Assembly (NCBI GenBank): GCA_011620345.1
Contig: WOZJ01000002.1
Coordinates: 1 to 9,139 of the forward strand
Length of the DNA: 9,139 bases
Direction: 5' to 3'
DNA from: Nitrospirota bacterium
GTDB lineage: Bacteria; UBA2233
Below are positions 1-9,139 of this stretch, piece by piece. The notes under the pieces were generated by a model. It ran no database searches. It saw only the letters and a program-made list of their open reading frames with translations, and was not told where the DNA came from. The translations under genes were made by a program, and so were the position numbers. Each line of letters opens with the position of its first letter. Position 1 is the stretch's first letter.

Positions 1-31
1 AGCAGTCTCTTTCGTAGTGAAGAAAATATGT

Positions 32-46
32 GTTGAAAAAGTGAAC
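32..46. promoter_or_regulatory. Weak distal copy of the upstream inverted repeat
   Basis: The sequence reads GTTGAA-AAA-GTGAAC. The left arm is identical to the two better copies downstream, but the right arm matches TTCAAC at only four of six positions. Its centre lies about 51 bases upstream of the next copy, close to five helical turns. It is proposed as a third, weak binding site for the enhancer-binding regulator encoded at 5394. The similarity is seen directly; binding is inferred. Confidence 0.3.
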
Positions 47-82
47 CTCAAAAAGGGCTTTTTATGGGGATTTTAAAATTCT

Positions 83-97
83 GTTGAAAATTTCATC
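83..97. promoter_or_regulatory. Candidate enhancer site, imperfect inverted repeat
   Basis: GTTGAA-AAT-TTCATC has the same 6-3-6 layout as the perfect copy at 106-120, with one mismatch in the right arm. The two centres are 23 bases apart, about two helical turns, so dimers would sit on nearly the same DNA face. This arrangement is typical of NtrC-family upstream activating sequences. The likely binder is the regulator encoded at 5394-6752, which is an inference. Confidence 0.5.
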
Positions 98-105
98 GTG
101 CATTC

Positions 106-120
106 GTTGAAAGATTCAAC
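106..120. promoter_or_regulatory. Candidate enhancer site, perfect inverted repeat
   Basis: GTTGAA-AGA-TTCAAC is a perfect 6-base inverted repeat with a 3-base spacer. Its centre is about 96 bases upstream of the -12 element of the sigma-54 promoter at 196-211, a normal distance for an enhancer-binding activator acting by DNA looping. A further isolated TTCAAC half-site lies at 153-158. The regulator with a Fis-type helix-turn-helix encoded in this window is the natural candidate to bind here. Confidence 0.55.
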
Positions 121-195
121 ATTTTTGGAACCGTGCAGGTCTCACAAAAAACTTCAACAGGCCGAAAGTGTGGAAAAATCAGGCACGCTACGGCA

Positions 196-211
196 TGGCA
201 TCATTATTGCG
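196..211 (+). promoter_or_regulatory. Sigma-54 (-24/-12) promoter for the six-gene operon
   Basis: TGGCATC-ATTA-TTGCG closely matches the sigma-54 consensus TGGCACG-N4-TTGCW. It has the invariant GG (197-198) and GC (209-210) at the required spacing. Transcription should start around 221-223, leaving a leader of about 30 bases that contains the AAGGAG Shine-Dalgarno at 241-246 and the ATG at 253. A sigma-54 promoter needs an AAA+ activator, and one with the GAFTGA sigma-54 contact loop is encoded at 5394. The promoter match is direct; activity is inferred. Confidence 0.8.
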
Positions 212-252
212 TACATATTAAGCGTGGACAGTCGAAAAAAAAGGAGAAGGCC

Positions 253-1377
253 ATGAAAAGTCTCATTGCAGGGTTTGGGTTCTTCGCGATTCTGACTTTG
301 ACCCTTCCATTGCTCGCGTTGACGATGTTTGTGCTTCGTTACGCCGGGTTCCTCGTTCTTGTCCCAATAGGGGCGGCCCTTGTGGGAAAAGAGTTGGGAG
401 TTGCCGTTTGTGAAGGGTCTGGACGTACGATTCAAAGGAGGGTTGCCATGAAACGTAGGTTGTTGGATGCTTTCGCCGCGCTGGCCGTTTTGCTCGGCGT
501 CGTCGTAGCCATTCCCGTGATGGCGCTCGGGGTCGTCTTGTTGCGGCCGCTTTTGCTTGGTGCGGTTCCTGTCGGGGTTGTCGGTATTGGGCTTGCTCGC
601 TTAGTTTCTGCCAGGCGCGTGGGCGAGGGCCTTACCAAGCTGATGGTGACCGTCTCGGTCCTGATCGGCTTGCTCGTGGCAATCCCGCTTATGGCCTTTC
701 TTGGGTTTACGCTGCGCTATGCGCTGGCCCTGGCTATCCCTGCGGGCGTGATTGGAGGCGCGCTCGCGCTCGCGCTTGATCCGAGCTTCAGGGCCTTGAT
801 CCTCGAAAAGACGGCCGATCGGCGTTTGCGGCAGATCATGGGGTTTATGCTTTCAGACAACTGCCTTTATTCCCCAAGCCATACCTGGACAAGGGTAGGG
901 ATCGGCCGGAAAGAGGCGGAAATCGGCCTGGATGACTTCGCCCAGAAGCTCCTTGGGAAGGCCGGCGCGATCGAGCTTTCGGTAACCCCGGGCACACTGG
1001 TGAAGCAGGGCGAAACGATCGGGATGCTCCGGCACGACGGGCGTTCGATTCCGATCAAGTCTCCGCTCGAAGGGGTCGTCTCCAGCCTGAACAGGGGCGT
1101 TTTGAGCGATCCTGGCAGGATTAACCATGACCCATACGGCAGGGGTTGGATCCTGAAACTCGAGCCGCAATCGTTTGCCTACGACCGTGTCCTGTTGAAG
1201 ACCGGAGAAGCGGCGAGGGAATGGCTCCAAAACGAACTTGAGCGCTTCCGGGTGATCGTTCAGGGTAGCCCAGCGCTTGTCCCCGTCCTTCAGGATGGCG
1301 GCGTATTTGTAGAGAACCTGGCCGAACACTTGGACGATGCCACGTGGGCAAGGCTCAAAGAAAGCTTTTTCAAATAA
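253..1377 (+). CDS. Polytopic membrane protein with triplicated hairpin and C-terminal GcvH-like domain
   Basis: The product is 374 residues. The ATG at 253 is chosen because AAGGAG lies 7-12 bases before it. An in-frame GTG at 133 would lie upstream of the predicted transcription start. Residues 1-176 hold three related hydrophobic hairpins (about 3-50, 69-118, 129-176). Residues 205-305 resemble the glycine-cleavage H protein fold, with YSPSHTW, IGLDDFAQKLLG and IKSPLEGVV. The position of the lipoyl lysine, eight residues before the Pro of SPLEG, is Gly263, so classical lipoylation is not expected. Residues 315-374 form an extra C-terminal domain with VLQDGGV, shared with the products starting at 3580 and 4564. 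It is first in the operon, 11 bases before the Fe-S gene. A role as membrane scaffold or assembly factor for the Fe-S/NrfD module is inference; the true function is unknown. Confidence 0.85.
   Translation: MKSLIAGFGFFAILTLTLPLLALTMFVLRYAGFLVLVPIGAALVGKELGVAVCEGSGRTIQRRVAMKRRLLDAFAALAVLLGVVVAIPVMALGVVLLRPLLLGAVPVGVVGIGLARLVSARRVGEGLTKLMVTVSVLIGLLVAIPLMAFLGFTLRYALALAIPAGVIGGALALALDPSFRALILEKTADRRLRQIMGFMLSDNCLYSPSHTWTRVGIGRKEAEIGLDDFAQKLLGKAGAIELSVTPGTLVKQGETIGMLRHDGRSIPIKSPLEGVVSSLNRGVLSDPGRINHDPYGRGWILKLEPQSFAYDRVLLKTGEAAREWLQNELERFRVIVQGSPALVPVLQDGGVFVENLAEHLDDATWARLKESFFK
259..783 (+). repeat. Three tandem membrane-hairpin repeats within the first gene
   Basis: Repeat units at about 259-402, 457-606 and 637-783 each encode some 50 hydrophobic residues. 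They share a pattern of P-[LVM]-[LM]-A, then six or seven residues, LR, then P-x-G near the end. Units 2 and 3 are closest, sharing VAIP-x-MA and LR at the same positions. The small protein encoded at 4319 has one similar segment (VLIPLIG, then AVRAL). This indicates duplication of a one-hairpin module at protein level. The DNA itself has diverged. Confidence 0.6.
435..450 (+). promoter_or_regulatory. Strong internal Shine-Dalgarno and ATG inside the first gene
   Basis: AAAGGAGGGTTGCC directly precedes an in-frame ATG at 448 (Met66 of the 374-residue protein), which begins the second hairpin unit. The AGGAGG core is stronger than the one at the annotated start. A shorter 309-residue isoform beginning with hairpin 2 is therefore possible. 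Alternatively this is the relic start of a formerly separate gene. Initiation here is inferred, not shown. Confidence 0.45.
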
Positions 1378-1388
1378 GGAGTGCGGGC

Positions 1389-2285
1389 ATGGACATTCGA
1401 AGGCGAGATTTTCTAAAGCTTACAGGACTTGCGGCAGCGACCGGAATCCTCGGCCCTGGGGGGAACGGAAGGGTCCTCGGGGCCGAGACTGGGCCCAAAG
1501 ACGATGGTTACGGGCTTTTGATCGACACGACGAGGTGCGTTGGATGTCGCTCTTGCGAGCTTGCCTGTGCCGAGGCCAACGGCCTTAAAGAGCCAGAGCA
1601 GTTCGGGGATGAGGCCATCTTTCAAAGGGTCAGGACGACCTCTCCCGATGCCTTTACCGTGGTCAATCGCTACGAGACCCAAAAAGGCCAAGTCTTTCGA
1701 AAGCAGCAATGTATGCACTGCCTTCAACCTGCATGCGAGTCTGCTTGCCTGGTAAGGGCGCTTCGAAAGCATCCGGAAGGCCCGGTCACCTGGAACGATA
1801 AGAAGTGTCTTGGGTGTCGCTACTGCATGATCTCTTGCCCGTTCGACGTGCCCAAGTTCGAGTACAACAGCCCGAACCCGCGGATCCGGAAGTGTACGCT
1901 TTGCTTCGAGCGGGTCAAGGCTGGCAAGCAAACAGCTTGTGCCGAGGCCTGCCCTGTGGAGGCGATTCGGTTTGGCAAACGCTCGGAACTGCTGGAAACC
2001 GCAAAAACAAGGATTTACCAAAACCAGGACAGTTACGTCCATTCCATCTACGGCGAGCACGAGGCGGGCGGAACGAGCGTGATGTACTTATCCGCCGTCC
2101 CGTTCGAGCAGCTTGGCCTCAACACGGGCCTCGATAAGAAACCTTACCCCGAGCTGACGCAGGAATATCTGCATAACATCGTGCTGGTGGATTTATTCTT
2201 CCCCATCTTCTTGCTCGGCATAAGCTATGCGGTGAAGGGCAGGGAGAAGGAGATCAAAGCCCAAACGAGGGAGGAAGAGCGATGA
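1389..2285 (+). CDS. Tat-exported HybA/HmcB-like ferredoxin with four [4Fe-4S] clusters and C-terminal anchor
   Basis: The product is 298 residues. The ATG at 1389 is preceded by AAGGAG at 1376-1381, and it places a twin-arginine signal (RRRDFLKL, residues 4-11) at the N terminus. An in-frame ATG at 1344 would overlap the previous gene and bury that signal. Four Cys quartets are visible: C50-C53-C56-C60, C108-C111-C116-C120, C140-C143-C146-C150 and C169-C172-C184-C188, the pattern of the HybA/DsrO/HmcB electron-transfer family. A hydrophobic segment at about 262-282 is a C-terminal anchor, as in HybA. The protein should sit on the periplasmic face and pass electrons to or from the NrfD-type partner, whose gene overlaps its stop codon by ATGA. 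No molybdopterin, hydrogenase or cytochrome subunit is encoded nearby, so the redox partner is unknown. Confidence 0.9.
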   Translation: MDIRRRDFLKLTGLAAATGILGPGGNGRVLGAETGPKDDGYGLLIDTTRCVGCRSCELACAEANGLKEPEQFGDEAIFQRVRTTSPDAFTVVNRYETQKGQVFRKQQCMHCLQPACESACLVRALRKHPEGPVTWNDKKCLGCRYCMISCPFDVPKFEYNSPNPRIRKCTLCFERVKAGKQTACAEACPVEAIRFGKRSELLETAKTRIYQNQDSYVHSIYGEHEAGGTSVMYLSAVPFEQLGLNTGLDKKPYPELTQEYLHNIVLVDLFFPIFLLGISYAVKGREKEIKAQTREEER

Positions 2286-3595
2286 AACGCCAAGACTCAA
2301 AGATGCCCATGCGGGTCGAGCCACTTAGGAGGGCAACGAGGCCCTCGTTTAGGGCGCTAAGCACCGAGTTTGCAAGGTTCGTACGTTTCATACTTGAAGA
2401 GCTCAAGCCCAAGGGCAAGATTCTTACGCCCTTTAACGTGATCACGGGCGTGATCATCCTCGTTGGGCTCGTGATCATCGTCGTTCGGTTTGCCAAGGGG
2501 CTTGGTGCCGTAACGAACCTCTCCCAGGAGTTCCCCTGGGGGCTGTGGATCGGGTTTGATGTTGTCACGGGCGTGGCCTTTGCGGGCGGTGCCTACGTTT
2601 TGACGTTCATGGTCTACATCCTGGGGTTAGAAAAATACCACCCTATTGCCCGGATCACGGTGCTTAACGGTTTTTTGGCCTACGCGTTTTATGCAGGAGC
2701 GCTCCTGCTCGACATCGGGCGTCCTTGGCATATCTTCAACCCGATCATCGGGAACTCTTTCGGGGCCGCTTCGGTTATGTTCCTCGTCGCCTGGCATTTC
2801 TTCTTGTACACGGTGGCTGAGTTCGTAGAGTTCTCCCCGGCCATCGGCGAGTGGTTAGGCTACCGGAGGCTTACTCGTATCTTGCAATCATTGACGCTCG
2901 CGGCCGTCATCTTCGGCATCATGCTCTCGACGGGCCATCAATCTGGGTTGGGGGCGCTGTTCTTGATGGCCAAGGGCAAGTTGCATCCGCTTTGGTATTC
3001 AAGCCTCTTGCCCGTTTCATTCTTTGTCTCCAGCATCTTTGCCGGGCTGTCGATGGTGATCTTGGAGGGAACGATCAGCGAACGGGTGTTTTCCGACCGC
3101 ATTCCAGGCACCCATAAGGCTTCCCACGGCGAGATCGTGGTCGGCCTTTCCAGGGTATGCGTAGGAGCGATGTTCGTCTACTTGTTCCTCGAGGTCGCCA
3201 AGCTCATAAACGAAGGGACGATTGGCTACCTTGCGACCCCGATGGGCGCCTGGTACCTGCTGGAGGTCTTGGGATTCATGCTTATCCCGGCGGGCCTGTT
3301 CCTTCTGGGGGCTCGAAGCGCCAACCTGTTCATGCTCAAAATCGCCGCGTTCGGAACGGTGCTTGGCGTTGCGCTCAACCGTCTCAACGTCTCGATCATC
3401 GCCTACAAATGGAATGCTCCTTTCCATTACGTGCCCTCCTGGATGGAGATTTGGGTGACGCTTGCCGTCATCAGTGCGGAGATTTGGGCGCTTCGCTGGA
3501 TTGTCCGCCGCATGCCCGTTTACGAAGAACATGAAGAACATTTGGATGTCGAAGAACTATCGGTTAAGGAGGGAGTCCAATGGAAGGCTATGTAG
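2282..3595 (+). CDS. NrfD/HybB-family membrane subunit, quinone-interacting
   Basis: This 437-residue protein has about ten predicted membrane segments between residues 50 and 410. HybB-type signatures are visible: PWGLWIGFDVVTG (85-97), DIGRPWHIFNP (144-154), AWHFFLYTVAE (170-180), STGHQSGLG (216-224), LHPLWYSSLLPVSFF (234-248) and LNRLNVSIIAY (365-375). Members of this family bear no cofactor of their own and exchange electrons between menaquinone and an attached Fe-S subunit, here the product of the preceding gene (ATGA overlap at 2282). The C-terminal tail is acidic (EEHEEHLDVEE), and its last 16 bases overlap the next gene. Whether the pair reduces or oxidises quinone cannot be told from sequence. 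It most resembles the HybAB-like halves of Hyb and Hmc complexes. Confidence 0.92.
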   Translation: MKRQDSKMPMRVEPLRRATRPSFRALSTEFARFVRFILEELKPKGKILTPFNVITGVIILVGLVIIVVRFAKGLGAVTNLSQEFPWGLWIGFDVVTGVAFAGGAYVLTFMVYILGLEKYHPIARITVLNGFLAYAFYAGALLLDIGRPWHIFNPIIGNSFGAASVMFLVAWHFFLYTVAEFVEFSPAIGEWLGYRRLTRILQSLTLAAVIFGIMLSTGHQSGLGALFLMAKGKLHPLWYSSLLPVSFFVSSIFAGLSMVILEGTISERVFSDRIPGTHKASHGEIVVGLSRVCVGAMFVYLFLEVAKLINEGTIGYLATPMGAWYLLEVLGFMLIPAGLFLLGARSANLFMLKIAAFGTVLGVALNRLNVSIIAYKWNAPFHYVPSWMEIWVTLAVISAEIWALRWIVRRMPVYEEHEEHLDVEELSVKEGVQWKAM

Positions 3596-4293
3596 ACCTG
3601 CACGCACTCAAGGCGCTGAATTACCTTGTGGCCGTCATCTCGCTGATTTCCCTGGTCTTCTTCTGGCAAGTCTTGAAGGCTCCGGCGGTCAGGAGAGTGG
3701 TCCAACGGGTGGGGACGAGCATCGCGGACATGGCCAGGTGGTTTTTCTTGCCGGAGCATTACTACTTCCACCCAGGACATACCTGGGCATGCCCCGGGGA
3801 TGACGGAAGGATGTTGGTGGGCATGGACGACTTTGCCACGAAGCTCGTTGGCCAAATTGACGAGATCGAGCTCCCCAAGCCGGGCACCCGTGTTCGGCAA
3901 GGTCAGGTGGTTTGGAAGGTCCGGGTGGCTGGCAAGACGTTCTCCATGCGTTCGCCCGTCGAAGGGGTCGTGGAGGAAATTCATGAGGCGGTACGTGAGA
4001 ACCCAAGCCTCCTCCTGAATGATCCTTACAAAAACGGCTGGATCTTGCGCATCAGGCCTGAAGACCCGGCCGCTTCACTCTCCACGCTCCTTTCTGGGGG
4101 TCTTGCCAGGCGCTGTCTTGAAACCGACCTGTCAAGGCTGCTCCCAGCTGGCTCGGGAGAGCTTGGTGTACTCGCTCAAGATGGCGGGCTTCTCTTACAA
4201 GACGGCGGGATGCCGATCCACGGGATTGCCCAAGCCCTCGAACCCGAGCGCTGGGATGAGCTCGTTTCCGAAATGTTCCTGACGAAGGAATAG
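3580..4293 (+). CDS. GcvH-like protein with N-terminal membrane helix and no lipoyl lysine at the expected site
   Basis: The product is 237 residues. The ATG at 3580 lies within the end of the NrfD-type gene and is preceded by AAGGAGGGA (3566-3574), so translation is coupled. Residues 13-32 form one membrane helix. Residues 58-160 are H-protein-like, with YYFHPGHTW, VGMDDFATKLVG, the hairpin ending in MRSPVEGVV, and DPYKNGWIL. The lipoyl-lysine position (eight before Pro126) is Gly118; a lysine lies one residue later (Lys119), so modification is unlikely but not excluded. Residues 165-237 match the C-terminal domain of its two paralogues and contain QDGG twice (200-203 and 207-210). The helix should anchor it beside the NrfD-type subunit. 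Which side of the membrane the H-like domain faces is not certain. Its function is unknown, and glycine cleavage is improbable because no gcvT or gcvP is present. Confidence 0.85.
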   Translation: MEGYVDLHALKALNYLVAVISLISLVFFWQVLKAPAVRRVVQRVGTSIADMARWFFLPEHYYFHPGHTWACPGDDGRMLVGMDDFATKLVGQIDEIELPKPGTRVRQGQVVWKVRVAGKTFSMRSPVEGVVEEIHEAVRENPSLLLNDPYKNGWILRIRPEDPAASLSTLLSGGLARRCLETDLSRLLPAGSGELGVLAQDGGLLLQDGGMPIHGIAQALEPERWDELVSEMFLTKE

Positions 4294-4318
4294 GTTCGCT
4301 CAAACGAAGGGGATAGCC

Positions 4319-4567
4319 ATGAAGAACAAGCACGGTCCCGCCAAGGGTGCCAAGGAAAGCCCAAGGACGGCCCTTTGGGTCGTCCTTGGGCCCCTGCTTG
4401 GGCTTATGTATGTTGTCTTGATCCCACTGATCGGGCTTTTTGCGCTTGCGTTTCTGGCGGTTCGTGCGCTCGAGAGAGCGTTTCGTCCTTCAAGGGCGGG
4501 GGTCGTGTATCCTGACGGAGGACTTTCTGTCAAAAAAGCGGGAAAAAAAGAGGGGGAGGAGGGATGA
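4319..4567 (+). CDS. Small hairpin membrane protein
   Basis: The product is 82 residues. It has a basic N terminus (residues 1-17), a continuous hydrophobic stretch at about 18-52 long enough for a tight hairpin or one long helix, and a charged tail ending in KKAGKKEGEEG. A purine-rich GAAGGGGA lies 5-12 bases before the ATG. The hydrophobic core (VLIPLIG, then AVRAL) resembles the repeat unit of the first gene in the operon. Its stop overlaps the next start by ATGA. No database family is recognised by eye. The resemblance suggests a membrane tether for the GcvH-like protein that follows. That would mirror the first gene, where hairpins and H-like domain are one chain. Its size and lack of other motifs limit confidence in function, but gene position and spacing make it a real gene. 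Confidence 0.75.
   Translation: MKNKHGPAKGAKESPRTALWVVLGPLLGLMYVVLIPLIGLFALAFLAVRALERAFRPSRAGVVYPDGGLSVKKAGKKEGEEG
4542..4566 (+). other. Possible -1 slippage run upstream of an ATGA gene junction
   Basis: In the small gene's frame the codons read GGA-AAA-AAA-GAG, giving a slippery A-AAA-AAA heptamer at 4543-4549. The frame of the next gene is -1 relative to it and is open from 4516 through the ATG at 4564. A -1 shift would therefore fuse the hairpin protein to the GcvH-like protein through an RGGGG linker. Ordinary coupled reinitiation at ATGA, with a GGAGG immediately upstream, is the simpler reading. Confidence 0.3.
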
Positions 4568-5286
4568 AGACAATAGAAGGTCTCACGCCCTTGATCCCTA
4601 AAGGCGAAACTGCCTGCGTGTGGATGGAGGCGGGAGTTGTCAATTATAAGCTGTGCGATTGCGAGTGTGGATGCGAATCCTGCCCGTTCGATCGGGCGAT
4701 CAGGAGGCAGAGCGGCCCCGGTGCGCCCTTCTACGAAGCGAGCGGGATAAGGCTGTATCCAGGCCTTTTCTACCACCCAAGGCACCTTTGGGTGATGATT
4801 GAGGAAAAAGGTGAGGTCAGGATTGGGTTGGACGACTTTGCCCAGCGGCTCTTAGGTTCGGTCGAGAGACTTGTACTTCCTAAGACAGGGATAAGGATTG
4901 AGACCAACCCTCCAAAAGTCTTTGCGAGAGGTACGCTTCTTTCGCTTGCTGCTCCGATTCACGGTGTGGTGATCCAGGCGAACAAGAGCCTTATCGACAC
5001 GCCTTCGTTGATCCATGGGCACCCCTACACGAGAGGCTGGCTTGTCAGGGCTGTCCCCTCCCGCCTCAAGGAGGACCTTGAAATGCTCGCGTACGGGCAC
5101 GGGGCAAAGCGTTGGCTCCAAGAAGAGTGCAGCCGACTTACGGGCTTTTTTTCCAGGGCGCTCTCCCCGAGCGAATCCCAGGCCGGACCGACGCTCCAGG
5201 ATGGTGGGGTTCCACTTCTGGAGTCGTTGGACCAGTTCGACCCGCGGACGCTTAAGGAGGCGGTCAGGTTGTTTCTTGTTGGATGA
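4564..5286 (+). CDS. GcvH-like protein with Cys-rich N-terminal motif and no lipoyl lysine
   Basis: The product is 240 residues. It starts at the ATG overlapping the preceding stop and has no membrane segment. The N terminus carries a dense cysteine motif, C18, then C31-x-C33-x-C35-x-C37-x2-C40 followed by PFDRAI, suited to binding a metal or Fe-S cluster. Residues 66-162 are H-protein-like (YPGLFYHPRHLWV, IGLDDFAQRLLG, LAAPIHGVV, HPYTRGWLV). The hairpin is shortened, and the residue eight before Pro131 is Gly123, so there is no lipoyl lysine. Residues 170-240 are the shared C-terminal domain, with AKRWLQEE and TLQDGGVPLLESLD. Proteins with this Cys-plus-H layout are, to my knowledge, commonly auto-annotated as glycine cleavage H protein in deltaproteobacteria, but the gene context here is electron transfer. 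It is the last gene before the probable operon boundary. Exact function is unknown. Confidence 0.85.
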   Translation: MKTIEGLTPLIPKGETACVWMEAGVVNYKLCDCECGCESCPFDRAIRRQSGPGAPFYEASGIRLYPGLFYHPRHLWVMIEEKGEVRIGLDDFAQRLLGSVERLVLPKTGIRIETNPPKVFARGTLLSLAAPIHGVVIQANKSLIDTPSLIHGHPYTRGWLVRAVPSRLKEDLEMLAYGHGAKRWLQEECSRLTGFFSRALSPSESQAGPTLQDGGVPLLESLDQFDPRTLKEAVRLFLVG

Positions 5287-5312
5287 GACAATCTTCTTGC
5301 TCGAGGGCTTGG

Positions 5313-5341
5313 TTGAGTTCTTGGACAAAAGATCGTATACT
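5313..5341 (+). promoter_or_regulatory. Probable sigma-70 promoter of the two-component operon
   Basis: A -35-like TTGAGT (5313-5318) and a -10-like TATACT (5336-5341) are separated by exactly 17 bases in the 107-base gap before the response regulator gene. A constitutive or mildly autoregulated promoter here would let the regulator be made before the sigma-54 operon is induced. A loose match to the upstream repeat (GTTGAG-TTC-TTGGAC, 5312-5326) overlaps the -35, but it is too degenerate to count on. Confidence 0.5.
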
Positions 5342-5393
5342 ATTTCGAAGAAAAAGTTGTTTTAATAATTCCTGTTTATCGGGAGATTAAGCC

Positions 5394-6752
5394 ATGCAGG
5401 AAGTAGTCAGCCTCCTGATCGTGGACGATGAGCCTTCGGTGGGTGATTCGCTCCTGAGCTGGTTCAAGGAGGAAGGCTATGAAGTCGAGGTTGCCCGGGA
5501 CGCCAAGACATGCCTCACCAAAATGGCCGAGCGGCAGTATGACATCTACCTGGTCGACATCCGGATGCCCGGGATCGACGGGCTTGAGCTCCAGCGGCGC
5601 ATCAAGAAGGTCCAGCCCGATGCTACGATCATCATCATGACGGCCTATGCAAGCGTCGAGTCGGCCGTGGAGGCGCTCAAGCAGGGGGCTTACGATTACA
5701 TCACCAAGCCCTTCGACCCGGACGAACTTGCCCATCTTGTCCGGAACGCGGCCGAGCGAAAGCGTCTTATGCTCGAGTCGCAAAAGCTCAAAACGCGCCT
5801 CGAAGAATCCTCCATGACCCCCGAGATCGTCGGCAAGAGCAAGGCCATGCAGCAAGTTATGGAGCTCGTGCATACCGTGGCCAAAACAGATGCCACCGTA
5901 CTGATCCGGGGCGAGTCGGGGACCGGCAAGGAGCTTATCGCCAGGGCCATCCATGCCAACTCCAGCCGTCGCTACATGCCGATCGTTACTGTCAATTGCG
6001 GTGCACTGGCCGAGGGTGTGCTCGAAAGCGAGCTGTTCGGCCACGAAAAGGGGGCGTTCACGGGGGCGCACTACCAACGAAAGGGCAAGTTCGAGATGGC
6101 AGACGGGGGGACGATCTTCTTGGACGAAATCGGGGACATCAGCCTCAAGACGCAGACCGACCTCCTTAGGGTGATCGAAGAGAAGAAATTTTTCCGTGTT
6201 GGCGGCAACAAGGAGATTTACTCCGACTTCCGAACGATCGCGGCCACAAACAAAGACCTAGAGCAGATGGTGGCCAACGGAACCTTTCGCTCGGATTTGT
6301 ACTACCGCCTGAACGTCTTTACCATCTTCATCCCACCGCTCAAGGACAGGCCCGAGGACATCCCGGTTTTGATCGAGCATTTTATCAAGAAGTACGCAAT
6401 GAGCATGAACAAGCCGATTCGGGGAATCGACCCGTCGGCCATGAGCATGCTTCTTACCTACGACTGGCCGGGCAACGTAAGGGAGCTCGAGAACGCCATC
6501 GAAAGGGCCATGGTGGTAGCGAAATCCGAAGTCTTGCATTCGGAAAACTTCGCGTTCCGCTTCGAAGCCCAGAAGGACGACGAAAAGCATGCCCGGCCGC
6601 TGGGAACGCTCTCGGACATGGAAAAAGAATACATTCAAAATGTGCTCGAAGAAACTGGGTGGAACATCGCGCAGTCGGCTAGGCTCTTGGATATCGACCG
6701 CGTGACGCTCTACAACAAAATCAAAAAGTATAACCTTACCCGTAAGGCTTGA
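5394..6752 (+). CDS. NtrC-family sigma-54-dependent response regulator
   Basis: The product is 452 residues; the ATG at 5394 is preceded by GGGAG at 5381-5385. The receiver domain (1-120) has acidic D11/D12, phosphoacceptor D55 in LVDIRMPG, T83 and K105. The AAA+ domain (about 145-375) has Walker A GESGTGKE (173-180), the sigma-54 contact loop GAFTGA (220-225), Walker B GGTIFLDE (238-245) and the arginine-finger region FRSDLYYRLNVF. Residues 408-449 form a Fis-type helix-turn-helix (WNIAQSARLLDIDRVTLYNKI). All catalytic residues are intact, so it should be a fully competent activator that hydrolyses ATP to remodel sigma-54 polymerase once phosphorylated. The kinase gene follows 26 bases later. 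The sigma-54 promoter at 196-211 with its inverted repeats is the obvious target. The exact signal cannot be read from this protein. Confidence 0.95.
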   Translation: MQEVVSLLIVDDEPSVGDSLLSWFKEEGYEVEVARDAKTCLTKMAERQYDIYLVDIRMPGIDGLELQRRIKKVQPDATIIIMTAYASVESAVEALKQGAYDYITKPFDPDELAHLVRNAAERKRLMLESQKLKTRLEESSMTPEIVGKSKAMQQVMELVHTVAKTDATVLIRGESGTGKELIARAIHANSSRRYMPIVTVNCGALAEGVLESELFGHEKGAFTGAHYQRKGKFEMADGGTIFLDEIGDISLKTQTDLLRVIEEKKFFRVGGNKEIYSDFRTIAATNKDLEQMVANGTFRSDLYYRLNVFTIFIPPLKDRPEDIPVLIEHFIKKYAMSMNKPIRGIDPSAMSMLLTYDWPGNVRELENAIERAMVVAKSEVLHSENFAFRFEAQKDDEKHARPLGTLSDMEKEYIQNVLEETGWNIAQSARLLDIDRVTLYNKIKKYNLTRKA

Positions 6753-6778
6753 AAACTCTCCAACCCGGGTAGGTACCG

Positions 6779-8446
6779 ATGGCAGGTCTGAGGCAATCTT
6801 CGCTTGGAGCCTTCAAAAAAAGCTTGACGCTCAAGTTGCTGGTCTTTTTGGTCGGCTCACTGGTCTTTTTGGTCGGCGTTATTGCCTACACATCCGTTTC
6901 TACCTGCCGAAGCCGCCTGCTGGCGACGGTCCTTTTGAACGCCGAACAGACGGCCGATGTGCTCAAAAGGAGCCTTCGGTACGCCATGCTCAAGAACGAG
7001 CGTGAGACGATCTACCATATCATCAATACTGTGGCCAAGGAGCCGGGCATCAAAAAGGTCCGGATCTACAATAAAGAAGGCCAGATCGTTTTTTCATCTC
7101 TAGAGTACGAAACGGGCTCGTTCGTGGACCTTCGAGCGGATGCCTGTATCGGATGCCATGGCCAAGCAAGGACGCTCGAACGCCTTCCTCGGACAGATAG
7201 GTTTAGAGAATACCACCTCGCCAAAAAGGGCCATGTGCTAGGGTTGATCCTGCCGATCGAAAACGAGCCCGAGTGTGCGAACCAAGGCTGCCATGCAAGC
7301 CCGAAAGCCAAGCCTATTCTTGGAGTGCTCGATGTCATCCTTTCGCTCACGTCCGTCGATGAGAGCGTGAAGACCCTCCAAGCGCAGCTTCTGATCCAGC
7401 TCCTCGTGCTTTTGTTGGCAGTCACGCTCGTGAGCGTGCTTTTGCTGGTTCGGTTTGTCCGCAACCCCCTAAGGGTGCTTCTTGAAGGAACAGAACAGCT
7501 ACGCGCAGGGAATCTGTCCTTCGTGCTCAAAGTCACTTCGGAAGACGAAATCGGGGACCTTTGCCGTTCGTTTAACGAGATGGCCCGGTCACTCATGGAG
7601 GCGAGGGACAAGATCCTTGCCTGGAACGAGGAGCTCGAAAAACGGGTGGAAGAGCGAACGGCCCAGCTTAAAAAGGCCCATGAGGAGATGATCCGCTCCG
7701 CCAAGATGGCCTCCGTCGGCAAGCTTGCGGCTATCGTGGCCCACGAAATCAACAACCCGCTCTTTGGGGTTCGGACCTACGCCAAGCTGCTTCAGAGGCG
7801 GCTCGAAAAGGAGGGGGTGCTCAAGAATGGCCCAGAGGAGGATACTGCCAAGATCTTGGCGACGATCGAGGCCGAAGTTGCCCGCTGTGGTGAGATTGTA
7901 AAGAACCTCCTTCAGTTTTCCAGGCCAAGCGCCCCAAAGATAGAGCTAAAGTCCTTGAACGCGGCCGTAGAGAAAGCAATACGCCTGATCCAGCACCAAA
8001 TCGACCTGCTCGGGGCTGAAATGATCGTGGGGCTTGACAAGAGTCTTCCCGACATTCCGATCGACGAACAGAAGATCCAGCAGGTGCTCCTTGCGCTCCT
8101 GATCAACGCGTGCGAGGCAATCCCGAAGGGTTCGGGGAGGATCGAGGTTCGGACGGGGCGCTCGGAGGCAGGAGATGGGGTAGAGGTTCTTGTTCGGGAC
8201 AACGGGGCCGGTATCGATGAGGACGTCCTGCCGCACATCTTTGAGCCTTTCTTCACGACCAAGGGTCAGAGGCCGGGGGGTGGAGGGACAGGCCTTGGGC
8301 TTTCCGTCGTCCAGTCCATCGTGACACTCCACCACGGCCGGATTGCCGTCAGCTCCAAGAAAGGAGAGGGAACGACGTTCGTCATGCTCCTGCCGTTTAA
8401 GCAGCCTGAGCGCGAGGAAGAGTTTGGCCTTGAGGAGGTCATTTAG
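6779..8446 (+). CDS. Membrane histidine kinase with periplasmic c-type heme motifs
   Basis: The product is 555 residues. Transmembrane helix 1 lies at about 19-39 and helix 2 at about 204-226, enclosing a periplasmic domain of some 165 residues. This domain contains two c-type heme attachment motifs, CIGCH (123-127) and the variant Cx4CH motif CANQGCH (166-172), followed by LGVLDVILSL before helix 2. A HAMP domain (227-280), a coiled coil (280-310), a HisKA domain with AHEINNPL (phosphoacceptor His322) and an HATPase domain follow. The ATPase domain has an N box around Asn443, DNGAG (474-478) and GGGTGLGL (501-508). The domain layout is NtrB/ZraS-like with no PAS domain. The sensor probably responds to periplasmic redox potential or a heme ligand and signals to the regulator encoded just upstream. 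Heme attachment would need the cytochrome c maturation system. The nature of the ligand is unknown. Confidence 0.93.
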   Translation: MAGLRQSSLGAFKKSLTLKLLVFLVGSLVFLVGVIAYTSVSTCRSRLLATVLLNAEQTADVLKRSLRYAMLKNERETIYHIINTVAKEPGIKKVRIYNKEGQIVFSSLEYETGSFVDLRADACIGCHGQARTLERLPRTDRFREYHLAKKGHVLGLILPIENEPECANQGCHASPKAKPILGVLDVILSLTSVDESVKTLQAQLLIQLLVLLLAVTLVSVLLLVRFVRNPLRVLLEGTEQLRAGNLSFVLKVTSEDEIGDLCRSFNEMARSLMEARDKILAWNEELEKRVEERTAQLKKAHEEMIRSAKMASVGKLAAIVAHEINNPLFGVRTYAKLLQRRLEKEGVLKNGPEEDTAKILATIEAEVARCGEIVKNLLQFSRPSAPKIELKSLNAAVEKAIRLIQHQIDLLGAEMIVGLDKSLPDIPIDEQKIQQVLLALLINACEAIPKGSGRIEVRTGRSEAGDGVEVLVRDNGAGIDEDVLPHIFEPFFTTKGQRPGGGGTGLGLSVVQSIVTLHHGRIAVSSKKGEGTTFVMLLPFKQPEREEEFGLEEVI

Positions 8447-8449
8447 GCC

Positions 8450-8989
8450 GTGCGTGGGATAGAGCTCGTCCCCTTGGGAAGGGTGGACATGCGGGCGGTA
8501 GATTTCCTCTCGCTCGTTTTGCCCGACACGTTTAGGGTGCCCTGCAGCGTAAGGAAGCTCGCAATCGACATCGAGCCCGCGTTTGACCCTAAAAGAAGAC
8601 AGTACCACTCCACGAAACTTATCGTGAGGCTGCTTGATTTTGCAAGAAGGGATTACAAAATGCTTGGCGTCACGGATGTGGACCTGCATATTCCCATCCT
8701 GACGTTTGTGTTCGGTGAAGCGCAACTTGGAAGGTACTGCGCCGTTGTTTCTACAAGTAGGCTCCATCAGAGCTTCTATGGCTTCGAGGAAGACGAGGTG
8801 CTGTTTTTGGAGAGGCTCGAAAAGGAGGCGATTCACGAGCTCGGGCATACGCTTGGGCTGATCCATTGCCCGGACTACGCTTGCGTGATGCACTACGCCA
8901 ACGCAATCGAGGACATCGACCTGAAGGCGAACACCTTCTGCCATGCCTGTATCTCGACAGTTCAGCAAAACCTTCTGGCCGGAAGGTAG
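8450..8989 (+). CDS. amzA: Archaemetzincin-type zinc metalloprotease (peptidase family M54)
   Basis: The product is 179 residues, a normal size for the family. The GTG at 8450 follows the kinase stop by three bases, and GAGGAGG (8432-8438) inside the kinase gene serves as Shine-Dalgarno, so the genes are co-transcribed and probably coupled. The catalytic motif HELGHTLGLIHC (129-140) supplies three zinc ligands (H129, H133, H139) and Glu130. C140, C145, C164 and C167 match the family's second, structural zinc site, and Met147 fits the Met-turn. There is no signal peptide, so it should be cytoplasmic. Archaemetzincins are found in archaea and some bacteria and their substrates are poorly known. 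Its place behind a sensor kinase and regulator suggests a link to that regulon, perhaps regulated turnover of a component, but this is inference only. Confidence 0.93.
   Translation: MRGIELVPLGRVDMRAVDFLSLVLPDTFRVPCSVRKLAIDIEPAFDPKRRQYHSTKLIVRLLDFARRDYKMLGVTDVDLHIPILTFVFGEAQLGRYCAVVSTSRLHQSFYGFEEDEVLFLERLEKEAIHELGHTLGLIHCPDYACVMHYANAIEDIDLKANTFCHACISTVQQNLLAGR
8970..8987 (+). terminator. Short hairpin at the end of the metalloprotease gene
   Basis: ACCTTC and GAAGGT pair perfectly around TGGCCG, giving a six-pair stem overlapping the first base of the TAG stop. Only a few scattered T residues follow, not a proper T tract. It may be a weak terminator, an mRNA 3' structure or chance. The pairing is seen directly; the function is uncertain. 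Confidence 0.25.
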
Positions 8990-9139
8990 TTATCGTCCCG
9001 TTTGCGCCGTAAGGCCCCAACTTGCTGGTGTCAAGTCCCAAAAGTGCCTTACTTTCCTCCGATAGACGATCCCATCTTCGCACCCTCTAGATAGCGGGTC
9101 TGTTGTCCTGCAAGAAATCACCATCGAATTTACCCCTCC
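8990..9139. other. Downstream region with nested inverted repeat, no convincing gene
   Basis: The 150 bases after the last gene contain GTAAGGC (9009-9015) pairing with GCCTTAC (9046-9052), with an inner pair ACTTG (9020-9024) and CAAGT (9032-9036) around a 7-base loop. Together they make a two-tier stem. A - strand frame is open from the window edge to a TAA at 8990-8992, directly abutting the TAG of the metalloprotease. It could be the last 49 codons of a convergent gene (ending WGLTAQTGR), but an open frame this short arises easily by chance and no family is recognised. Confidence 0.3.

Follow-up and report, generated by a model that had tools for sequence, protein, structure and literature searches.

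What purpose is served by three copies of a carrier fold that has lost its cofactor site, all lying within one membrane redox operon? The H-protein normally carries lipoic acid, and its fold is the classic swinging-arm carrier. The question is raised by a stretch of 9,139 nucleotides from a Nitrospirota bacterium (contig WOZJ01000002.1, positions 1 to 9,139; by the window we mean this whole stretch), in which an earlier note had drawn attention to three H-like proteins without the lipoyl lysine, encoded beside an Fe-S protein and an NrfD-type membrane protein. On the answer given here our confidence is about evenly balanced: the window holds one instance of a redox-signalling cassette that is conserved and patchy in its distribution, in which the H-like proteins serve as docking or regulatory modules of an HmcB/HmcC pair (HmcBC) under the control of a haem-sensing two-component system. 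The cassette points to an undescribed signal-controlled redox system. Its predicted control circuit is well supported by the sequence comparisons; the biochemical role of H is one that we infer.

The three H-like proteins are encoded on the + strand at 253..1377 (H1), 3580..4293 (H2) and 4564..5286 (H3). H1 comprises several hydrophobic hairpins, an H domain and an LQDGG tail. H2 has one transmembrane (TM) helix, an H domain predicted to be cytoplasmic and a QDGG tail, and H3 is soluble, with an N-terminal Cys motif (CVWMEAGVVNYKLCDCECGCESCPF), an H domain and an LQDGG tail. All three match Pfam GCV_H, at 65, 71 and 60 bits against a cut-off of 22.2 (E values of 7.9e-18, 9.7e-20 and 3.2e-16), and score 62, 72 and 59 bits with NCBIfam GcvH, under the cut-off of about 116-117 for true GcvH. 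The single-chain AlphaFold2 model of H2 has the H-protein fold at residues 56-183, with Z = 19.0 and a root-mean-square deviation of 1.4 Å to the pea H-protein 1htp, and the order of secondary-structure elements in the H3 model is similar. The position of the lipoyl lysine is occupied by Gly263, Gly118 and Gly123 respectively (codons 1039..1041, 3931..3933 and 4930..4932, + strand). These align 8 residues ahead of the invariant [SA]-P, where the host's real GcvH has ESVK, and the hairpin lipoyl-lysine of ES[VT]K is absent from all three copies. Neither gcvT nor gcvP was found in the window, nor lipoate ligase or LipS1/S2 in Pfam and NCBIfam scans of its open reading frames (ORFs); a normal gcvT-gcvH-gcvP cluster lies elsewhere in the host, on contig C66. 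The lysine is missing from 61 of the 62 H-like members of the cassette found in all. The GCV_H matches, the fold of H2, the alignment of the glycines and this count together indicate that the original observation, of H-like domains with glycine at the lysine position and no glycine-cleavage or ligase genes nearby, was right and not due to chance. The window proteins are therefore like GcvH in fold and Pfam family, and unlike it in what they have lost and in what they add, an N-terminal membrane or Cys segment and a C-terminal tail of DGG and helix. Lacking the lysine, they cannot be normal aminomethyl or lipoyl carriers.

Could a lipoyl-like arm be carried on another residue, shuttling thiols or electrons as LbpA does in sHdr sulfur oxidation? 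LbpA is a precedent for the recruitment of a GcvH relative to a redox system (Cao et al. 2018; PMC10332631), the overall H fold is intact in the H2 model, and an NrfD-H fusion at one locus (L046) does have Lys at the site. However, LbpA has a dedicated ligase that lipoylates it, and its partners are Hdr-like proteins; the window proteins have HmcBC/NrfD as partner. The sHdr systems have sLpl(AB)/LipS1S2 genes and a lipoylated lysine, none of which is present in the window. That fusion is the sole Lys case, and the other members share no conserved substitute. We regard such an arm as very improbable. The proposal that one conserved catalytic residue had taken the place of the lysine was rejected, as the column contains G, S, D, N, A, T, H, E, Y and others.

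The partners of H in the window lie between H1 and H2. The gene at 1389..2285 encodes a predicted Tat-exported (twin-arginine translocation), tail-anchored HmcB/HybA-like 4x[4Fe-4S] protein (NCBIfam HmcB 330 bits, HybA 243 bits), and that at 2282..3595 an HmcC/HybB-like NrfD quinone-site membrane protein of about 10 TM helices (NCBIfam HmcC 394 bits, Pfam NrfD 44.8 bits). The first of these genes probably starts at ATG 1389 instead of GTG 1344, the start of the longest ORF, because the Tat motif comes after 1389. All 16 cluster Cys residues of E. coli HybA are aligned in the window HmcB, and the window HmcC keeps the equivalents of HybB Asp58, Tyr141, Glu148, Glu155, His184 and Ser186, a list taken from a review of NrfD proteins (PMC8076601) that makes no mention of GcvH or lipoyl partners. 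A four-[4Fe-4S] ferredoxin-like subunit and an NrfD-family membrane subunit are thus both present, as in HmcBC, HybAB and other NrfD modules, and the retention of the cluster cysteines and of the quinone and ion-path residues makes the pair look able to exchange electrons with quinone. The Tat Fe-S and NrfD neighbours claimed at the outset are real, and the Fe-S protein is intact. The pair differs from HmcBC and HybAB in that no HybO/HybC hydrogenase subunits were found among the window ORFs and no HmcA cytochrome in the window, and in scoring below the equivalog cut-offs (420 for HmcB, 550 for HmcC; the HybA score is also under its cut-off).

H2 served as the first query against other genomes, and a 32-row H profile as the second. 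The cassette recurs at about 30 loci in more than 20 lineages that are small or distant; Desulfarculales and Acidobacteria (among the latter Candidatus Sulfotelmatobacter) are two of them, and in two small phyla all members examined have strong H-like matches. Phylum-level searches around two cassette genomes (G015 and G058) returned only those genomes. The recurrent set consists of H-like proteins, most often two or three of them, together with HmcB, HmcC, a kinase bearing CxxCH and Cx4CH motifs, a sigma-54 regulator and an archaemetzincin. At about 25 of the 31 loci H has HmcB and/or HmcC as its neighbour, and several of the remaining loci lie at contig ends. This joint retention favours the view of the earlier note that the H fold has been repurposed and is tied to the Fe-S/NrfD pair. 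A chance grouping, or a set of horizontally moved fragments with no functional unity, might be argued from the congener that has no cassette; it is contradicted by the synteny, with gene set, promoter and palindrome alike in many distant lineages, and we give it almost no credence.

A more serious contender is that the H proteins have no more than a structural or assembly role, each kind supplying one subunit to an energy-conserving NrfD complex, with the two-component system controlling expression only and the archaemetzincin incidental. The tight overlap of the genes within 1344-4567 and the constant company of HmcBC would fit this. So would the age of the paralogue classes: in a single-domain tree with moderate support, cassette H proteins are split from true GcvH and the window H2 clusters with H2-type proteins from other lineages. 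Yet the number of H copies per cassette ranges from 1, in Acidobacteria, to 3, and the single acidobacterial H gene stands behind a sigma-54 promoter of its own, HmcBC being encoded with the kinase and regulator. Fusions of H to receiver domains are ill-suited to a passive part, and the archaemetzincin is strongly linked to the cassette. We find a purely structural role possible but doubtful. That the three copies each supply one subunit of a single assembly, as first proposed, was not borne out, given the variable copy number and the NuoF/NuoG-like partners in two genomes (G002 and G287). What survives of the structural proposal is the tie to the redox pair; that structure is the whole of it is disfavored by the haem-sensing two-component system, the archaemetzincin and the receiver-H fusions.

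These fusions occur in four genomes (G053, G105, G241 and G207) with a version of the cassette that we term flavour II, having a kinase and two receiver-H fusions and no sigma-54 regulator. HmcB and HmcC lie within the cluster in all four, and multihaem cytochromes are close by in three. In G053, G105 and G241 one fusion of the pair has the order TM-receiver-H, with the TM helix N-terminal. The two receiver-H copies form two separate clades of the H tree, with the same moderate support from a single domain. Flavour II has neither an archaemetzincin nor a DGG tail. The fusions point to regulation by H, and not to structure alone. Moreover, since receivers work in the cytoplasm, the TM-receiver-H proteins place the H domains of cassette proteins, by prediction, on the cytoplasmic side; flanking charges put H there in 31 of 40 membrane-anchored members.

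Two variants of the redox module were also observed. The flavour II NrfD proteins (L072 9206-10750 and L073 6149-7783) have an extra TM helix and a C-terminal tri-CxxCH domain. The cassette of G026 (L053 8207-12839) includes a Tat molybdopterin-oxidoreductase-like protein and a five-CxxCH cytochrome, resembling the Qrc/ACIII complex.

The control genes follow H3. A sigma-54-dependent NtrC-type response regulator (5394..6752, + strand) has receiver, AAA+ and Fis-type helix-turn-helix domains (Pfam Response_reg, Sigma54_activat and HTH_8), and a sensor histidine kinase (6779..8446, + strand; Pfam HAMP, HisKA and HATPase_c) has a periplasmic domain with CxxCH and Cx4CH motifs. These motifs are kept in nearly all cassette kinases, and the kinase would be a periplasmic c-type-haem sensor. 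Ahead of the operon there is a -24/-12 sigma-54 promoter element, TGGCATCATTATTGC (196..210, + strand), which is an exact match to TGGCAYNNNNNTTGC and begins 57 bases ahead of the 253 start codon of H1. With two mismatches allowed, -24/-12 matches in the window do not exceed chance expectation, so the case rests on the exact, well-placed match and on its recurrence. Such an element precedes most H operons of the cassette. Taking a score of at least 13.0 of 14.5 as a good element, we find one close to the first H gene in G007, G015, G021, G025, G032, G042, G058 (two loci), G087, G137, G187, G287 and four of five Acidobacteria; in G015 and G025 it falls just within the ORF as called, whose true start may lie further downstream. 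None was found before the acidobacterial HmcB genes or in the sigma-54-less locus of G053.

Further upstream is the palindrome CGTTGAAAGATTCAACA (105..121, no strand assigned), which matches the consensus TGTTGAAnnnTTCAACA at 13/14 positions and is proposed as the upstream activating sequence of the sigma-54 regulator. The consensus was defined from the window and two other loci (L057 and L066) and tested on the remaining loci. The palindrome occurs upstream of H operons across phyla, with a combined p of about 2e-12 against shuffles, a value that is approximate because related loci are not independent, and G087 has three sites together ahead of its H operon. In the 1.8 Mb host genome 105-121 is the sole site with no more than one mismatch. 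No other of the 17 host-wide -24/-12 sites has the palindrome, and no wider regulon was found. Binding of the regulator at the palindrome would fire the -24/-12 promoter. The arrangement resembles NtrC/AtoC-type systems in domain order and in its putative promoter with upstream palindrome, and differs from them in the CxxCH and Cx4CH sensor of the kinase and, in flavour II, in having receiver-H fusions for a regulator. Elsewhere in the host (G000:C16:8214-8253), two divergent -24/-12 elements 25 bases apart lie downstream of cydAB-like genes.

The same circuit might be read in the opposite direction, with HmcBC and H forming a sensing arm that reports the redox state of the quinone pool to the kinase and regulator, and with no bulk electron transfer. 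In Acidobacteria, HmcB, HmcC, kinase, regulator and archaemetzincin form one run without a sigma-54 element, and the regulated promoter is on the one H gene only; by Pfam, the window cassette encodes no dedicated dehydrogenase or reductase. In most other lineages, however, HmcBC share the sigma-54 promoter of H and so count among its outputs. As in real respiratory complexes, multihaem cytochromes or a molybdopterin protein are present at several loci, and the kinase has a predicted haem sensor of its own. A sensing arm therefore seems distinctly unlikely.

The last gene encodes an archaemetzincin (M54; 8450..8989, + strand), a predicted protease with an intact zinc site (HExxHxxGxxHC...C..C). 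Like known members of the family it has the zinc motif HExxHxxGxxHC visible in the sequence and scores above the NCBIfam archmetzin cut-off (162.5 bits against 145). An archaemetzincin is present in 14 of 17 genomes with strong H-like matches versus 30 of 274 others (p = 2e-10), where ten of the 17 besides the host gave profile rows or first surfaced in the H2 search; it is present in four of six newly found genomes, always on the contig of H. A candidate target is the DGG tail, which in the H2 and H3 models is a low-confidence linker ahead of the C-terminal helix (4201..4209, + strand, for the motif of H2, between that helix and the H domain). The LxDGG tail occurs in 20 of 21 genomes with an archaemetzincin and is missing in four of six without a detected protease, a pairing that is largely one evolutionary contrast, with the two exceptions on short contigs. 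The finding of the tail with the archaemetzincin, and its absence from flavour II, suggests that the protease may act there. We found no report in the open-licence literature of an archaemetzincin tied to a redox operon.

The preferred reading, of H as a docking or regulatory module, can be set out as follows. The c-type-haem kinase (6779-8446), judged by its conserved motifs, would read a redox state or ligand outside the cytoplasmic membrane. It would phosphorylate the activator (5394-6752), which would bind the palindrome at 105-121 and act on the -24/-12 promoter at 196-210. The operon expressed would, from the gene order, supply the HmcB/HybA-type Fe-S protein, the HmcC/HybB-type NrfD protein and three H-fold proteins free of the lipoyl lysine. 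H would dock on the NrfD/Fe-S module at its cytoplasmic face, as a non-catalytic regulator or adaptor that controls or connects electron flow with the quinone pool. In flavour II control of the redox module would be direct, because H is fused behind a phospho-receiver domain. The weakest step is the last, in which the archaemetzincin would trim the H proteins or otherwise turn the system over. A bolder form, in which lipoyl-less H is a new signal-output domain gating an NrfD/Fe-S quinone complex, made on demand by the haem kinase and sigma-54 and cut at LxDGG by the archaemetzincin in flavour I, and switched by receiver phosphorylation in flavour II, we consider unlikely.

Several observations weigh against this reading. 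The contact between H and HmcBC is one that we infer and do not observe directly. In G002 and G287, NuoF/NuoG-like or CCG-domain partners replace HmcBC; in one case a NuoG-like Fe-S protein of this type is fused to an H domain. The single NrfD-H ORF of L046, besides having the lysine, is topologically awkward, as the C-terminus of HmcC is expected inside and the linked helix would put H outside. (A second apparent NrfD-H fusion, L070, was rejected as two overlapping genes.) The window HmcB has a Tat signal, and about half of its relatives have none; those without Tat but with a C-terminal membrane helix are at L041, L045, L047, L048, L049, L058, L060, L061, L068, L069, L072 and L073. The side of the Fe-S protein, and so the orientation of the module, may therefore differ between lineages. 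The one congener searched, G001, has no cassette. Finally, many cassette loci lie in fragmented assemblies where contigs end, and loci that are related cannot count as independent.

In all, the ORF list, Pfam and NCBIfam give nine genes on the + strand of the window, H1 through archaemetzincin, and those from H1 to H3 adjoin or overlap one another. The remaining one (4319..4567, + strand) encodes a small membrane protein of 82 amino acids with a hydrophobic hairpin, and an ORF with hydrophobic segments is found at the same place in G087 (L066). The interval 253-5286 to which the earlier note was confined does contain the H and redox genes, together with this small gene; it leaves out the regulator, kinase and protease genes (5394-8989), and also the palindrome and promoter that lie ahead of 253, all of them parts of the one conserved unit. 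The gap from H3 to the regulator showed no terminator and has one weak sigma-70-like match, so the H1 to H3 genes may possibly be co-transcribed with those of the regulator, kinase and protease.

The Cys motif of H3 is also present in H-like proteins of loci L039, L041, L046 and L049. Soluble H-like proteins (L067 7950-9059, L042 10001-10828, L047 5165-5908 and L051 6914-7759) have two kinds of N-terminal Cys motif, CxWM..YKLC..C..CPF and CPFL..YC..CLS..H..C, which occur together in L067. Such motifs are possible Zn or Fe-S sites. The host has a second GcvH-like protein (G000:C50:162488-162844; L002, L054 7336-7869) with Arg at the lipoyl site (ESARTIKELVAP) and a thioredoxin/peroxiredoxin-like gene downstream, and there is a similar second match in the congener G001. 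G012 and G160 have five GcvH-type matches each, which by score are not cassette-like.

Each of these protein families is already known. What seems new is their combination, and the proposed use of a cofactor-free H as the partner of NrfD and as the output domain of receivers; for the cassette, for GcvH-like proteins with NrfD or HmcBC, and for archaemetzincin with a kinase, we found nothing in the open-licence literature. With its promoter and palindrome conserved, the circuit lends itself to reporter assays, and the receiver-H fusions yield a clear prediction of how activity is switched. If our reading is true, bacterial archaemetzincins would gain a defined genetic context, in a role of which we found no report, and a swinging-arm carrier fold would prove to have lost its cofactor and become a redox or signalling part of wide distribution.

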